In this document: positions 39,122 through 44,762 of the stretch, piece by piece
Position numbering within the stretch: the stretch's first letter is position 1
Layout of the letters: each line of letters begins with the position of its first letter
NCBI RefSeq assembly: GCF_900099775.1
Contig: NZ_FMTM01000010.1
Location: forward strand, 62,001 to 126,000
DNA length: 64,000 nt
Direction of reading: 5' to 3'
Origin: Rhizobium mongolense subsp. loessense
Lineage (GTDB): Bacteria; Pseudomonadota; Alphaproteobacteria; Rhizobiales; Rhizobiaceae
Translations under genes and position numbers: made by a program
Notes under the pieces: model-generated
What the model saw: only the letters and a program-made list of their open reading frames with translations
What the model was told of the DNA's origin: nothing
Databases searched by the model: none

Positions 39122-39838
39122 TTATTCCCGCTCGCCCGTGAAGTTGAGCAGGAGCTGGAAGATGTTCACGAAGTTCAGATAGAGCGAGAGCGCGCCGAAG
39201 ACAGCAAGCTTCTGGTTCGATTCCTGATCGTGATTTTCCGAATACTGTTCCTTGATGTTCTGCGTGTCCCAGGCGGTCAGGCCGACGAAGACGACGATAC
39301 CGATCACCGAAATGGCGAACTGCAGCGCGCTCGAACCCAGGAAGAGGTTGACGATGCTGGCGATGATGACGCCGATCAGGCCCATGATGAGAAACGAGCC
39401 GAAGCGGGAAAGATCACGCTTTGTCGCGTAGCCATAGAGACTGGTCGCGCCGAACATCGTCGCGGCGATGAAGAAAGTGCGCGCGATGCTCGTGCCGGTA
39501 AAGACCAGAAACACCGAGGCAAGCGACAGTCCCATCACCGCGCAGAACGCCCAGAAAGTCATCTGCGCAGCACTTGCCGACATCGTCTGGATGCGGAACG
39601 TGAAGAAGAAGACGAAGGCAAGCGGTGCGAGCATCACCACCCACTTCAAGGGTGACTGGAAGATCGGGACGTAAAGAGCCGGCGTGCTGCCGACGATGAA
39701 GGCGACGATCCCGGTGATGACCAGGCCGAGACCCATGTAGTTATAGACGCGCAGCATATGCTGGCGGAGGCCTTCGTCCAAGATAGCCTGCGAGCCTGCG
39801 GCGGAGCCGTAGCCGTATCGCGGATTGTTCGGATTCAT
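39122..39838 (-). CDS. Bax inhibitor-1/YccA family membrane protein
   Basis: 238-aa inner-membrane protein with seven hydrophobic segments and a Tyr/Gly-rich N-terminal tail. Family marks: HMLRVYNYMGLGLVITGIVA near residue 30, SLASVFLVFTGTSIARTFFI, and the C-terminal VGLTAWDTQNIKEQYSEN with the conserved Asp. Bacterial members have been implicated in calcium flux and FtsH-linked membrane-protein turnover. An 8-bp stem at 39091–39117 lies after its stop. Confidence 0.92.
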   Translation of the reverse strand: MNPNNPRYGYGSAAGSQAILDEGLRQHMLRVYNYMGLGLVITGIVAFIVGSTPALYVPIFQSPLKWVVMLAPLAFVFFFTFRIQTMSASAAQMTFWAFCAVMGLSLASVFLVFTGTSIARTFFIAATMFGATSLYGYATKRDLSRFGSFLIMGLIGVIIASIVNLFLGSSALQFAISVIGIVVFVGLTAWDTQNIKEQYSENHDQESNQKLAVFGALSLYLNFVNIFQLLLNFTGERE

Positions 39839-39859: not shown

Positions 39860-40627
39860 CTAGTAGAGCGAACGGGCGAGCCCTTCGGCAGCCCGGTCGA
39901 GTTCAAGTTCCTTGTCGCTGGCAATCAGCGCATAGGCGACCTCGCCGATTTGCCAGTAAGCAGCCTCGGCATTGTCGAGCGCCAGATGGCTGACCGGCTG
40001 AACGGCAAACGCCCCGGGCCGCACGGCAAAAAGCGAAAGCCGCTTTCCGTCCGGTTCCCGGATTGCCATTTCGACACTTGGGCCGAACTCAGACGGAAAG
40101 ATCTGGACATCGGAAACCTTCCAGTCTTTTGGGAGCTCTGGCATCGCGATTGCGGTCGCCGCACGAATGTCGTCGGCATTATATTGCGCCGCCGGCTGCG
40201 AGAGCATCGTTTCGCGAAGCTTGGCTGTCTGGTAGGCGCGCACTGCATCCTCGACGTAGGGCGGGGCCGGAACGGATGCGGCCACCTCCGTCGCCGTAAA
40301 GGCACCAAAGGATGTATGCGCCACCCAGCCTGCCATCACGAGCACGCCGACGGCGGCAATCCGCTGAACCGAATGCAGGATACGGCCGTAGGAAAGTCCC
40401 CGCTCTAGCCGCCGTGCGGCATCGCGTATTTCGATCCGGCCAAAGGCGTTTTCTCCGGCAAGCGCCAGACGAAGCTCGCCCTTGATGCTGAGATCTGCCA
40501 TGACCTTTGCTGCAATCGCCGGATTCTCAGACAGATAAGACTCCACCTGGATGCGGCGCGCCACGTCCAGTTCGCCATCCACATAGGCGTCGAGATCGGC
40601 ATCGATGATCGGATCAACTGCTTTCAT
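39860..40627 (-). CDS. Transmembrane anti-sigma factor
   Basis: 255-aa membrane protein with an N-terminal cytoplasmic anti-sigma-type domain (DADLDAYVDGELDVARRIQV, ESYLSENPAIAAKVMADL), one transmembrane helix (IAAVGVLVMAGWVAHTSFGAF) and a periplasmic domain. It lacks the HxxxCxxC zinc motif of ZAS anti-sigma factors. Its start overlaps the sigma-factor stop by 14 bp, the classic coupled arrangement. The signal sensed is unknown. Confidence 0.85.
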   Translation of the reverse strand: MKAVDPIIDADLDAYVDGELDVARRIQVESYLSENPAIAAKVMADLSIKGELRLALAGENAFGRIEIRDAARRLERGLSYGRILHSVQRIAAVGVLVMAGWVAHTSFGAFTATEVAASVPAPPYVEDAVRAYQTAKLRETMLSQPAAQYNADDIRAATAIAMPELPKDWKVSDVQIFPSEFGPSVEMAIREPDGKRLSLFAVRPGAFAVQPVSHLALDNAEAAYWQIGEVAYALIASDKELELDRAAEGLARSLY

Positions 40628-41153
40628 TGCCGTTCCTTCCGATTAACTTCAGGTGCGAGGCGCGCGGCGTCGCTGCCTCGAATTCACGAAGCTGGGCCCG
40701 GGCGCGCGAGATCCGCGACATCAGCGTTCCGACCGGGATGCCGAGCGAGGCTGCAGCTTCTTGGTAGGAAAGATCCTCGATCGCAACGAGATGCAGTGCT
40801 TCGCGCTGTTCTTCCGGCAGGTCGAAGAAAGCATCGCGGACCTGCTGAAGACGCACAGCGTGTTCCTGTCCTGCCGGCAGCGACTGGTCTGCCTCGATGG
40901 CTGCCTGGTCATGCCGGCGCGTTATGGACCGGTTCTGACGAACCCGGTCGATATGGGCGTTGTGGAGAATGGAAAGCAGCCAGGTCCTGAGGTTGCCGCC
41001 GCGCCTAAAGCTCTGCCGCTTCTCGAAGGCACGCACAAGCGCATCATGGACAAGATCTTCGGCGTCATCCGAATTGCGCACCAACGCACGCGCATAGCGC
41101 CTCAGCGCCGCGAGCTGCCCGATGACGTCGAATGGCCGTTCTTTCCGTTCCAT
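40614..41153 (-). CDS. ECF sigma factor
   Basis: 179-aa RNA polymerase sigma factor of the extracytoplasmic-function class. Region 2: YARALVRNSDDAEDLVHDAL, VRAFEKRQSFRRGGNLRTWL; region 4: LPEEQREALHLVAIEDLSYQ, EAAASLGIPVGTLMSRISRA. ATG 41153 is chosen because the longer frame to 41222 runs through the promoter elements. There is no ribosome binding site: a CGTATA box ends only 7 bp upstream, suggesting a leaderless or near-leaderless mRNA. Confidence 0.92.
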   Translation of the reverse strand: MERKERPFDVIGQLAALRRYARALVRNSDDAEDLVHDALVRAFEKRQSFRRGGNLRTWLLSILHNAHIDRVRQNRSITRRHDQAAIEADQSLPAGQEHAVRLQQVRDAFFDLPEEQREALHLVAIEDLSYQEAAASLGIPVGTLMSRISRARAQLREFEAATPRASHLKLIGRNGNESS

Positions 41154-41160
41154 GATTGAG

Positions 41161-41188
41161 TATACGACTGTCCGTGAGGTTTTATTCC
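41161..41188 (-). promoter_or_regulatory. Putative autoregulated ECF promoter
   Basis: Minus strand: GGAAT (41188–41184), 17-bp spacer, CGTATA (41166–41161), followed by CTCAATC and the sigma ATG. This resembles GGAA(C/T)-N16/17-CGT(T/A) ECF promoters and suggests self-activation with a start point at or next to the ATG. Confidence 0.65.
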
Positions 41189-41221
41189 AATTCTTCGAAA
41201 GTTTTTTAACGGGCGCTCTCA

Positions 41222-41449
41222 ATATGCGAAGCGGAAATCGTCAATCCGCTGGCTGAAGAGTTGGCTGCCACGAAGCGTATCAACAAGACCGCGGCCGTGC
41301 GGCTCGCACTTGAAAACGGGCTTGGCCGCACAGATGAAAAGCTCCCTCCGTGAGCGTTTAACGCCACTGCAGGAAAAGATCGCCCCCATCGGGACAGCGC
41401 CGTCGTTCTCGATAAGACGTTCTTCGACGATCTCACCGGCGAATACTGA
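41222..41449 (+). pseudogene. Decayed VapB-type antitoxin gene
   Basis: Frame fragments reproduce a PSK/VapB antitoxin: EIVNPLAEELAATKRINKTA and AVRLALENGLGRTDEKLP, then after a shift LRERLTPLQEKIAPIG, then after another shift DKTFFDDLTGEY and a stop at 41447. These match the usual ribbon-helix-helix antitoxin order (LAxELA...T.AVxxALE...LxERLxxLxxxIA...DEILGYD-like tail). The reading frame is broken at least twice and the ATG at 41224 is out of frame. Confidence 0.65.
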
Positions 41450-41847
41450 TATTCGTCGATGCGCCGGCCATCATTGCACCGCTCTTGCAAGGACAGAAAT
41501 GGGTAGTTTCGCGAGAGCCCTCGATGAGGTTCCTCGCGGGCAGAGCGCTCGTCACTTCCGTCGTTGCCGTGTGGGAGGCGTCGGCCGTCATCCATCGTAA
41601 GAAACAGATTCCGATGGCTAAAGCCGAGGCTTAGATCCGGGAATTTCTACGGCTTGCAGAGATCGCATTCGTATCGATAACGCTTGGCGAAAACACCATT
41701 GCCCTCAGCGCCTTGAAAATATGGACGCCATCGTTATCGGGCTGCTAACCGCAACAGTCCTCAATCTGGCTGATTGTTTTCACTATCCTGGCGAAGGATG
41801 CCGGTTTCGCGCTGACCGACCTCAAGGCAATTGGTCCTGATTTCTAG
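41446..41847 (+). pseudogene. Decayed VapC-type PIN toxin gene
   Basis: Directly overlaps the antitoxin stop, as VapC starts do, but with CTG where ATG is expected: IFVDAPAIIAPLLQGQ, then ALVTSVVAVWEASAVIHRKK and QIPMAKAEA, an in-frame TAG at about 41632, IREFLRLAEIAFVSITLGEN, a shifted VLNLADCFHY (the conserved NxxDC PIN motif) and a last frame AKDAGFALTDLKAIG ending at 41847. The early catalytic Asp (FVDA) is present but the gene cannot make a full PIN domain. Confidence 0.65.
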
Positions 41848-42239
41848 ACAGTTTTTCCATCCGACAACTCCTCAAGAATTGGACAATCCGGCCGGCCGTT
41901 GCCGTGGCAGGCATGCACCAGATGCTCCAGCGTCCGGCGCAGTTCCATCAACTCGCGGATCTTGCGATCAATCTCATTGAGCTTGCCTTGGGCGATCTCC
42001 TTCACATCGGCGCTTGCCCGGCTTTTGTCCTCGTAGAGCGCCAAGAGCTGGCGGCATTCCTCGACGGAGAAACCCAAGCCACGCGAGCGCTGGAGGAAAC
42101 GCAGCTTATGGACATCGGCTGCGGCATAGTCGCGGTAGCCGTTTCCGCCCCTGTCGGGGCGGATCAGGCCGATATCCTCGTAGTATCGGATGGTCTTCGA
42201 TGGCAGACCGGACCGGTCCGATGCTTCGCCGATGTTCAT
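41844..42239 (-). CDS. hmrR: MerR-family copper-responsive regulator HmrR/CueR
   Basis: 131-aa activator. MerR helix-turn-helix NIGEASDRSGLPSKTIRYYE, long dimerisation helix, and the metal-binding loop CHGNGRPDC (two Cys spaced by seven), typical for Cu(I)/Ag(I)/Au(I) sensors. 12 bp after the copper ATPase on the same strand, with AGAGG before the ATG. It would twist the 19-bp-spacer promoter upstream of the ATPase into activity and so regulate itself. Confidence 0.93.
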   Translation of the reverse strand: MNIGEASDRSGLPSKTIRYYEDIGLIRPDRGGNGYRDYAAADVHKLRFLQRSRGLGFSVEECRQLLALYEDKSRASADVKEIAQGKLNEIDRKIRELMELRRTLEHLVHACHGNGRPDCPILEELSDGKTV

Positions 42240-42251
42240 CCTCTTGTCCTT

Positions 42252-44762
42252 TCAGAGTTTCTGGAGCCTCAGTCTCAACGCGTTGCCGATCACGGAGACC
42301 GACGAAAGGCTCATGGCGGCTGCGGCAATCATCGGCGAGAGCAGTAGGCCGAAGACCGGGTAGAGCACGCCTGCTGCAACGGGCACGCCAAGCGCATTAT
42401 AGCCGAAGGCGAAGCCGAGATTTTGGCGGATGTTGCCCATTGTCGCCTCCGCCAGCCGCCGGGCACGCACGATTCCGTTGAGGTCACCCTTCACCAAGGT
42501 AATGCCGGCGCTTTCCATCGCAACATCTGCGCCCGTTCCCATGGCGATGCCGACATCTGCAGCTGCAAGCGCCGGAGCGTCATTCACGCCGTCGCCGGCC
42601 ATTGCAACGACCGCGCCCTTTGCATGCAGTTCGTCGATCAGCGCCTTCTTGCCTTCCGGCAATACGTCGGCGCGCACTTCATCGATCCCGAGGCTTTTTG
42701 CGACGGCGCTTGCCGTGCGCTCGTTGTCGCCGGTCGCCATGATGATGCGCAGCCCGCTTTCGTGCAACGCGCCGATCGCCTCGGCCGTTGTCGCCTTGAT
42801 GCGATCGGCAACCGCAACGAAACCCGCAAGGCTGCCGTCGATGGTGACGAACATCACGGTCTTGCCTTCGTCACGCAAGGCGCGGGTCCTTTCGGCAAGC
42901 GGCGCGGGATCGATACCGAGATCACCCATCATCGCGGTGTTGCCGAGCGCCACGGCCGTATTGTCGGCATTGCCTTTTACGCCTTTGCCGGTCACAGCCT
43001 CGAAGCCGGTGACCTCAACCAGTTTGACGTTCCGCTCTTCTGCGCCGGCGACGATCGCTTCGGCAAGCGGATGTTCGGAACCGCGCTCCAGGCTCGCCGC
43101 CAGCAGCAGCAGCCGTTCCTCGCTTACGGCGTCCATCGGCACGACGTCGGTTAGACGCGGCTTGCCTTCGGTCAATGTGCCCGTCTTGTCGACGATCAAC
43201 GTATCGACCTTCGAAAAACGCTCCAGTGCTTCAGCATCCTTGATCAGCACGCCCTCCTGCGCGCCACGGCCGGTCGCAATCATGATCGACATCGGCGTCG
43301 CAAGGCCAAGCGCGCACGGGCAGGCGATGATGAGCACGGCAACTGCAGCAAGCAGTCCATGCGCCATCGACGGCTCCGGCCCGAAAATGGCCCAGGCGAG
43401 GAAGGCAACAATCGCGATTACAACGACGGCAGGTACGAAAATGGCCGAGACCCGGTCAACTGCACCCTGGATCGGCGCACGCGAGCGCTGTGCCTTGGCG
43501 ACCATATCGACGATACGCGACAAGGTTGTTTCCTCGCCCACCCGCTCGGCCGTCATTACGAACGTGCCGTTGCGGTTGATCGTGCCGCCGGTGACAGCAT
43601 TGCCTTTTGTCTTTTCAACGGGAAGCGGCTCACCGGTGATCATCGATTCATCGACGGTTGATTGCCCTTCGCTGAGCGACCCATCGACCGGTACGCGCTC
43701 GCCCGGCCGTACCCGCAGCCGGTCACCGCTTGCGATCTCGTCCACTTCGATGTCCGTTTCGCTGCCGTCGGCATTAAGGCGGCGCGCCGTCTTTGGCGCA
43801 AGGTTGAGCAGTGCCCTGATGGCTGAGCCAGTCCGCTCGCGCGCCTTCAGTTCCAGAACCTGTCCGACGAAGACCAGCGCCACGATGACGGCAGCCGCCT
43901 CGAAATAGACAGGCACCGTCTCGTCGTGCCCCCTGAAACCCATGGGAAAGAGGCCGGGCGCAAGCGTCGCGACGACGCTGTAGACATAAGCGGTACCGAC
44001 GCCGAGGCCGATCAGCGTCCACATGTTCGGGCTGCGGTTGAGGAGTGAGTTCCAGGCCCGGCGGAAGAAGGGCAGGGCCGCCCAGAGCACGACAGGGGTT
44101 GCGAGCAAGAGTTCGGTGAAACTCACCAGCGGTTCGCCGATCGCATCGCGCAACGGCAGTCCGATCATCGGACCCATGCTGAGCACGAGCAGCGGAATGG
44201 CCAACACGGCGCTGATCCAGAGCCTCCGCGTGAAATCGGCAAGCTCCGGGTTCGGACCCTCTTTGGCTGGTGGAATACCCATCGGTTCCAACGCCATGCC
44301 GCATTTCGGGCAGTCGCCAGGATGATCGCTGACGATTTCCGGATGCATGGGGCAGGTATATTGGGTACCCTTGGGCATAGGCTTCGGCGCTTGCGGTTTT
44401 TCCTGACGAGAGATTTCTGGGTCGGCCTCGAACTTTGCCTTGCACCTGGCCGAGCAGAAGTAGAGTTTATCGCCGTCGTGCTTCAGGAAATGCTGCGCTG
44501 TGGCGCGATCGACGGACATGCCGCAAACCGGATCCTTCGCCGTCAGATAATCGTCCGGACTGGCTTCGAATCTCTTCCGGCAACCGTCGCTGCAGAAATG
44601 ATAAGTATGGCCCTGGTAATTGAGGCTCGGTTTGCCCGCGTTCGGATCAACTGTCATGCCGCAGACCGGATCGCGTGCCAAAGCGGCGCCGAGATTGTCC
44701 AGGCTTTGGTGGCAGGAGCAACTGCTACTTCCGTGATGACGATGATGATCAAGCGTATTCAT
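42252..44762 (-). CDS. Copper-exporting P1B-type ATPase with YHS metal-binding domains
   Basis: 836-aa inner-membrane Cu+ pump (CopA/ActP type). Instead of HMA domains its N-terminus has a His-rich start (DHHRHHG), two YHS segments ([38 protein letters not shown]) and a heavy-metal-binding segment [20 protein letters not shown]. ATPase core: translocation CPC in [13 protein letters not shown], phosphorylation [20 protein letters not shown], nucleotide-binding [23 protein letters not shown] precedes the ATG. Confidence 0.95.

Follow-up and report, generated by a model that had tools for sequence, protein, structure and literature searches.

The sigma factor gene and its likely operon

The locus lies in a 64-kb window, by which the whole stretch of DNA analysed is meant, and contains on the minus strand a gene for an ECF sigma factor of 179 aa with an ATG start (40614..41153). 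The protein consists of sigma regions 2 and 4 only (Sigma70_r2, PF04542, and r4_2, PF08281), which at this length identifies it as an ECF sigma factor, and it scores 290 bits on NF009164 (PRK12511), where the cut-off is 185. A second gene on the same strand (39860..40627) overlaps the sigma gene by 14 bp and encodes an anti-sigma-like protein of 255 aa, with a single hydrophobic stretch near residue 90 in the hydropathy profile. No Pfam match was found for this gene, and its match to NCBIfam NF010501 is weak and below the cut-off; in R. johnstonii and R. etli it is annotated as 'anti-sigma factor', the function predicted for it here. The third gene, encoding a Bax inhibitor-1/YccA-type membrane protein (39122..39838, minus strand; PF01027, E 1e-64), has its own Shine-Dalgarno-like sequence and is likely to be cotranscribed with the other two.

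Three sets of homologues were compared. The first comprises 80 loci of the genus, the best of 355 matches, of which 65 carry the name Rhizobium and 15 are labelled 'Rhizobiales bacterium'; R. mongolense is the closest, at 99% identity. The second holds 41 rows from the family and the third 14 further rows, taken from plasmids of Phyllobacterium, Microvirga, Paracoccus, Haematobacter, S. meliloti and Ensifer and from eight class-level genomes; two of these further rows are Rhizobiaceae plasmids (L219, L220), and L215 is almost identical to L149. In the resulting total of 135 rows, three family rows duplicate rows among the 80 and one is the window's own gene. The anti-sigma-like gene follows the sigma gene in all of the best 80 of 355 matches, in 41/41 family loci and in all 14 further rows, while the Bax-inhibitor gene adjoins in 80/80, 37/41 and 12 of them, respectively. 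Among the four family loci lacking an adjacent Bax-inhibitor gene, two (G504, G370) have it in longer stretches and one (G434) has none; the fourth is G459. Shine-Dalgarno-like 4-mers precede the Bax-inhibitor gene in 80/80 and the anti-sigma-like gene in 78/80 of these best matches, as raw counts with no chance rate attached.

Some features of the surroundings can be added. Upstream of the operon lie cueR and a gene for a copper-type P-ATPase (41844-44762, minus strand), which are kept within 3 kb in 52 and 51, respectively, of the best 80 of 355 loci. Between the sigma gene and cueR, a decayed relic resembling a toxin-antitoxin pair and split by stops occupies 41210-41745 on the plus strand; it includes a piece like the Rv0623 antitoxin, which stays below cut-off at E 4e-5, and another with a weak PIN-like match (E 0.09), for which AraC_N scores slightly higher. 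On two Paracoccaceae plasmids (L217, L218) an annotated DUF2076 gene comes next after the Bax-inhibitor gene, in the same orientation, and open reading frames resembling it were seen by eye at L203 and L204.

Distribution of the gene

The sigma gene is present in 60/60 genomes of the genus, and its distribution is patchy. With a cut-off of E 1e-35 or better outside the genus, a homologue was detected in 41 of 199 family genomes, representing 29 of 109 genera. At the class level, 9 of 289 genomes, the genome under study included, hold a homologue at 1e-38. The exact 7-nt form of the promoter arrangement described below, with GGAAT, occurs in three of the 289 class genomes. Two of these three (L112, L113) were rejected as chance, the frames behind them being only 21 and 2 codons long.

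The promoter and its distance from the start codon

On the minus strand, the sigma gene is preceded by the -35 element GGAAT (41184..41188) and, after a 17-nt spacer, by the -10 element CGTATA (41161..41166). The 7-nt gap CTCAATC (41154..41160) separates the latter from the ATG (41151..41153). The preliminary description of this DNA, which had reported a GGAAT-N17-CGTATA promoter ending 7 bp before the ATG, is thus borne out to the base (41188-41184, 41166-41161 and ATG at 41153). An A/T-rich tract upstream of the -35 element (41199..41208, minus strand) might act as an UP element; in the alignment of the best 80 of 355 homologues, columns -55 to -46 are enriched in A or T. The exact motif occurs once in the window, and the other nine of the ten matches found there carry two mismatches, which is about the chance level (chance mean 6.8 for all matches). 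In the 6.73-Mb genome, GGAAT-N16/17-CGTATA has two sites, against one for the reversed control. A simple scan of 41100-41450 found no housekeeping promoter just upstream of the sigma gene; it also listed two minus-strand sites that resemble terminators.

The same boxes, the same spacer length and the same 7-nt gap are found in 80/80 of the best 80 of 355 matches, where the information per column reaches 2.0 bits in the -35 and -10 elements and drops to 0.67 in the spacer and to 0.33 at -75 to -37, the DNA upstream of the -35 being scrambled among loci. In the other two sets the gap varies slightly, measuring 6 nt in 26, 7 in 14 and 8 in one of the 41 family rows, and 6 nt in 10, 7 in two and 9 in two of the 14 further rows, the last being two Paracoccaceae rows. 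Every one of the 135 homologue rows thus has an ATG 6-9 nt past the -10 box, as counted by a script that accepted only ATG and gaps of 4-9 nt and found one in every row. The result was the same when the boxes were placed first, apart from four family rows (L121, L129, L143, L146), where another in-frame start codon (GTG, TTG or ATG) lies between the -10 and the ATG used for the count. The boxes are less uniform at this distance: GGAAT occurs in 23/41 family and 2/14 further rows and is otherwise mostly replaced by GGATG, GGATT or GGAAG, one row (L217) being without a clean -35, and CGTATA occurs in 36/41 and 10/14. Since this close spacing is also kept by relatives in other genera, the layout of promoter and ATG looks functional rather than accidental.

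Across the three sets, a pyrimidine occupies position -1 in 80/80 (again the best 80 of 355), 39/41 and 12/14 rows, and the first in-frame start past the -10 is an ATG in 80/80, 38/41 and 14/14. Shine-Dalgarno-like 4-mers fall inside the gap in only 2/80, 2/41 and 3/14 rows, and would there be too close to the start to serve. In one genome (L267, G487) the promoter is kept together with an ATG 7 nt downstream, yet the following frame is not this sigma factor.

Where transcription should begin

A guide to the position of the start site is provided by the ECF-dependent promoters of S. meliloti, which are printed up to the mapped start in Table 1 of PMC6180224; the last printed base was read as the start, which the lower-case type of the final bases and the table's footnote support. 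The ten promoters of the ECF26 group with a GAAT box in that table start, counted from the G of GAAT, at 32 (one), 33 (three), 34 (five) or 36 (one). Promoters with RpoD or RpoH motifs, rpoE6 and RpoE2-type promoters were left out of this count; the box of SMc02156 is ambiguous. At the locus studied here the A of the ATG stands at 35, and in the 6-nt form at 34. S. meliloti favours purines as the first transcribed base (PMC3616915). Because the ten published starts lie at 32-36 and the A of the ATG at 35, the sigma mRNA is predicted to be leaderless or nearly so, with a leader of 0-4 nt.

The 5' end thus probably falls on the A of the ATG or within a few nt of it, at the 3' edge of the gap, in agreement with the earlier proposal that transcription begins at or next to this A: the ten S. 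meliloti starts, transferred to this promoter, fall on the A or within 1-3 nt of it. With such a 5' end the sigma gene would have no usable Shine-Dalgarno sequence. The absence of a ribosome binding site, likewise proposed before, is also what the geometry suggests, a leader of at most 7 nt having no room for a Shine-Dalgarno sequence at usable spacing. An AUG start and a predicted leader free of a Shine-Dalgarno sequence, two features of leaderless messages, are both found here, and the position of the ATG fits a third, a start of transcription on the first base of the AUG. Among the 16 Sigma70_r2 genes of the genome, this is the only one with a GGAA/CGT-type match at most 10 nt from its start; a looser ECF-like match is present at one other sigma gene (L164), 22 nt ahead of the ATG.

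It is possible, though less likely than not, that the message is not truly leaderless and carries a very short leader, with a start 1-4 nt before the ATG and a ribosome that uses this near-leaderless form. The published ECF26-group starts do range over 32-36 (PMC6180224), their modal position, 34, falls on the C at -1 in the 7-nt form, and most of the best 80 of 355 loci have purines at -4 and -3. Against this, the invariant combination of a pyrimidine at -1 and an A at +1 in those 80 loci favours a start on the A, and the 6-nt form has the A of the ATG on the modal position itself.

A leaderless or near-leaderless message is the preferred reading, and the conserved closeness of promoter and ATG may also be asked to mean less than it seems. 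It could reflect compaction or shared ancestry, with selection acting on the core promoter and the short gap having no translational role. Small gap changes (6, 7, 8 and 9 nt) do occur, all the rows are related, and outside the genus only homologues at E 1e-35 or better were covered. However, not one of the 135 rows needed a gap above 9 nt, although the sequence upstream of the -35 is scrambled in the best 80 of 355, and terC, the second putative target discussed below, has a gap of 78-109 nt. Compaction or shared ancestry on its own is rather doubtful.

Proposed self-activation and the terC site

The preliminary description had also taken the gene to be self-activated. Its promoter, GGAATA...CGTATA, fits the ECF26 consensus (-35 GGAATA, -10 GT, as in section 7 of PMC6180224). 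The motif stands upstream of this gene in the homologues, and the main clade conserves a single further site, so that self-activation is supported indirectly and self-recognition is best regarded as putative. In this genome the exact motif is found before the sigma gene and before terC, and nowhere else; a search allowing one mismatch listed the same two sites and no further target, with two hits for the reversed control. Across the genus, GGAATAA-N15-CGTATA occurs in 48/60 genomes, with a single hit in 60 for the reversed control. The main clade was defined as the 37 genus genomes closest to the window, with a sigma gene at E <1e-95, and each of them has the exact pattern exactly twice, the second site lying in 37/37 before terC (PF03741), whose ATG is 78-109 nt away. 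Of the remaining 23 genus genomes, only G024 has a second exact site, and the rest have one or none. The extra exact sites in G024, G502, G467 and G439 are by none of the genes for sigma, anti-sigma, bax, cueR, copA or terC.

Outside the genus, the site was found within 300 nt upstream in none of 27 close terC homologues, one of which (L196) has a loose match at 232 nt, and the putative target terC is for this reason clade-specific. The link to TerC nonetheless appears in several forms. In G365, a TerC-type paralogue with a longer frame (56% identical) is preceded by GGATTAA...CGTATA at a distance of 203 nt from the aligned start, a site that resembles the sigma promoter of the same genome, and in two other genera (G416, G396) a TerC-type gene of 519-524 aa lies inside the sigma gene cluster.

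With regard to the terC leaders themselves, a box resembling CTTG-N-TACAT, with the look of a housekeeping promoter, was noted by eye downstream of the ECF site (L082:1501-1607 and 36 more), as were short inverted repeats near the Shine-Dalgarno sequence. A structured leader was considered and rejected, since none of three Rfam matches in six loci reached the gathering score. The gene probably has a housekeeping promoter to which an ECF promoter has been added.

Variation in the -35 element offers a further view of recognition. In a sample of 63 rows (12 from the genus, 37 from the family and 14 further), Gly149 of the sigma factor is found in 11/11 GGATT rows, 5/13 GGATG rows and none of 39 rows with A at base 4 of the -35, one of the latter being GCAAG. 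Six other GGATG rows have Val145, and two have neither residue. Residue 149 belongs to what we take, from the sigma-E structure, to be the DNA-reading helix for the -35. This residue was picked after the fact, three other columns contrast more by one measure and ten by another, and on the tree the pattern amounts to 6-7 changes with only two supported independent pairs, so that significance is out of reach; the joint variation of -35 base 4 and residue 149 is no more than suggestive.

These observations bear on whether the promoter, though real, is chiefly read by another ECF sigma factor, such as a paralogue or the general stress factor, in which case the loop would not be self-activating. 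The 16 Sigma70_r2 genes of the genome provide candidates. Nevertheless, the exact motif in the main clade stands only before this sigma gene and terC. In the family, GGAWTAA-N15-CGTATA was found in three of 158 family genomes without a detected homologue, against four for the reversed control, and in 13 of the 41 with a homologue, where it is mostly the sigma promoter itself. One of the three sites in homologue-free genomes, that of G487, looks like a relic of the sigma promoter. The suggestive variation of the -35 along with the helix expected to read it also speaks against another reader, which we judge improbable.

A longer TTG start (41220..41222, minus strand), giving a 202-aa ORF, would place the promoter inside the gene, as had been pointed out before, and would make the motif a chance occurrence. 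The frame is indeed open to 41222 in this genome, but such a longer protein is very unlikely, since 53 of the best 80 of 355 homologues have no in-frame start upstream of the ATG and the starts annotated in PLSDB for the orthologues in R. johnstonii 3841 and R. etli CFN 42, with a CDS of 540 bp, fit the ATG; moreover, three of those 80 have an in-frame stop at most 35 nt upstream of the ATG, the upstream DNA is poorly conserved, and the TTG itself is not conserved.

Relation to known systems

Self-activated ECF sigma factors and leaderless mRNAs are each already known. The sigma factor described here appears to be ECF26-like, and it shares several traits with RpoE1, RpoE4 and RpoE6 of S. meliloti (PMC6180224), which likewise use promoters with a GGAATA -35 and a GT-type -10. 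The S. meliloti factors have a membrane anti-sigma factor encoded downstream, as is predicted here for the anti-sigma-like gene, their regulons are mostly small, and the RpoE1 and RpoE6 operons are reported or argued to be self-activated, as is proposed for this one. Conversely, their -10 is CGTCT- or CGTTC-like in place of CGTATA, sections 6 and 7 of that paper make no mention of a Bax-inhibitor gene, and the words leaderless and TerC are absent from its text.

Leaderless messages are common in the relative S. meliloti 1021, in which 171 mapped start sites coincide with the first base of an AUG start codon (PMC3616915). These leaderless mRNAs have been mapped, whereas that of the present operon is predicted, and a conserved self-activated sigma operon is not discussed in the portions of that paper available here.

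Probable orthologues have been mentioned in passing. The R. leguminosarum sigma gene pRL110007, probably the orthologue judging by position, is given in the relevant part of PMC1557990 as having no orthologue in S. meliloti or A. tumefaciens; a 61% homologue is present on a plasmid of one S. meliloti strain. The R. etli ECF factor PE00004 is expressed during growth arrest (PMC3188799), where the passages available mention it once and do not characterise it. It is probably the R. etli orthologue, the tag having been matched through the position of the sigma gene as fourth CDS of p42e. The orthologue is not named among the sigma factors over-expressed after saline shock in the corresponding passages of PMC4167512. 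Among the literature matches listed, there was no description of this system of sigma, YccA and TerC; as far as they show, the new elements are the conservation of the tight layout throughout the homologues examined and a small regulon of YccA and TerC.

A proposed mechanism and its significance

Taken as a whole, we consider it likely, from the comparison of sequences, that an ECF26-like sigma factor reads its own promoter, that its message is leaderless or has a leader of 1-4 nt, and that terC is switched on with it in the main clade. RNA polymerase carrying the sigma factor would bind GGAAT-N17-CGTATA and start transcription on the A of the ATG or within about 3 nt of it, and sigma would then be translated without a Shine-Dalgarno sequence from the resulting mRNA. 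The two downstream genes, for the membrane anti-sigma-like protein and the YccA-type membrane protein, would use their Shine-Dalgarno-like sequences. An envelope or membrane signal would release sigma from the anti-sigma factor, and the freed sigma would amplify expression of the operon and also switch on terC in the main Rhizobium clade. More tentatively, the leaderless start itself may have been selected: in alphaproteobacteria with this operon the sigma gene, unlike its two operon partners, would have been held without a Shine-Dalgarno leader, with leaderless initiation, for example during growth arrest, setting the ratio of sigma to anti-sigma and hence the switching threshold, and with the YccA- and TerC-type proteins guarding the inner membrane; this we hold to be possible, on the doubtful side.

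The analysis outlines a concrete two-promoter regulon, made up of its own operon and terC, for a sigma factor that the literature found here hardly covers; the likely targets are membrane proteins of the YccA and TerC types. The tight and probably leaderless layout extends to all homologues examined, in 29 genera of the family and some beyond. It offers a natural and testable case in which the mode of translation may be under selection inside a proposed positive feedback loop.
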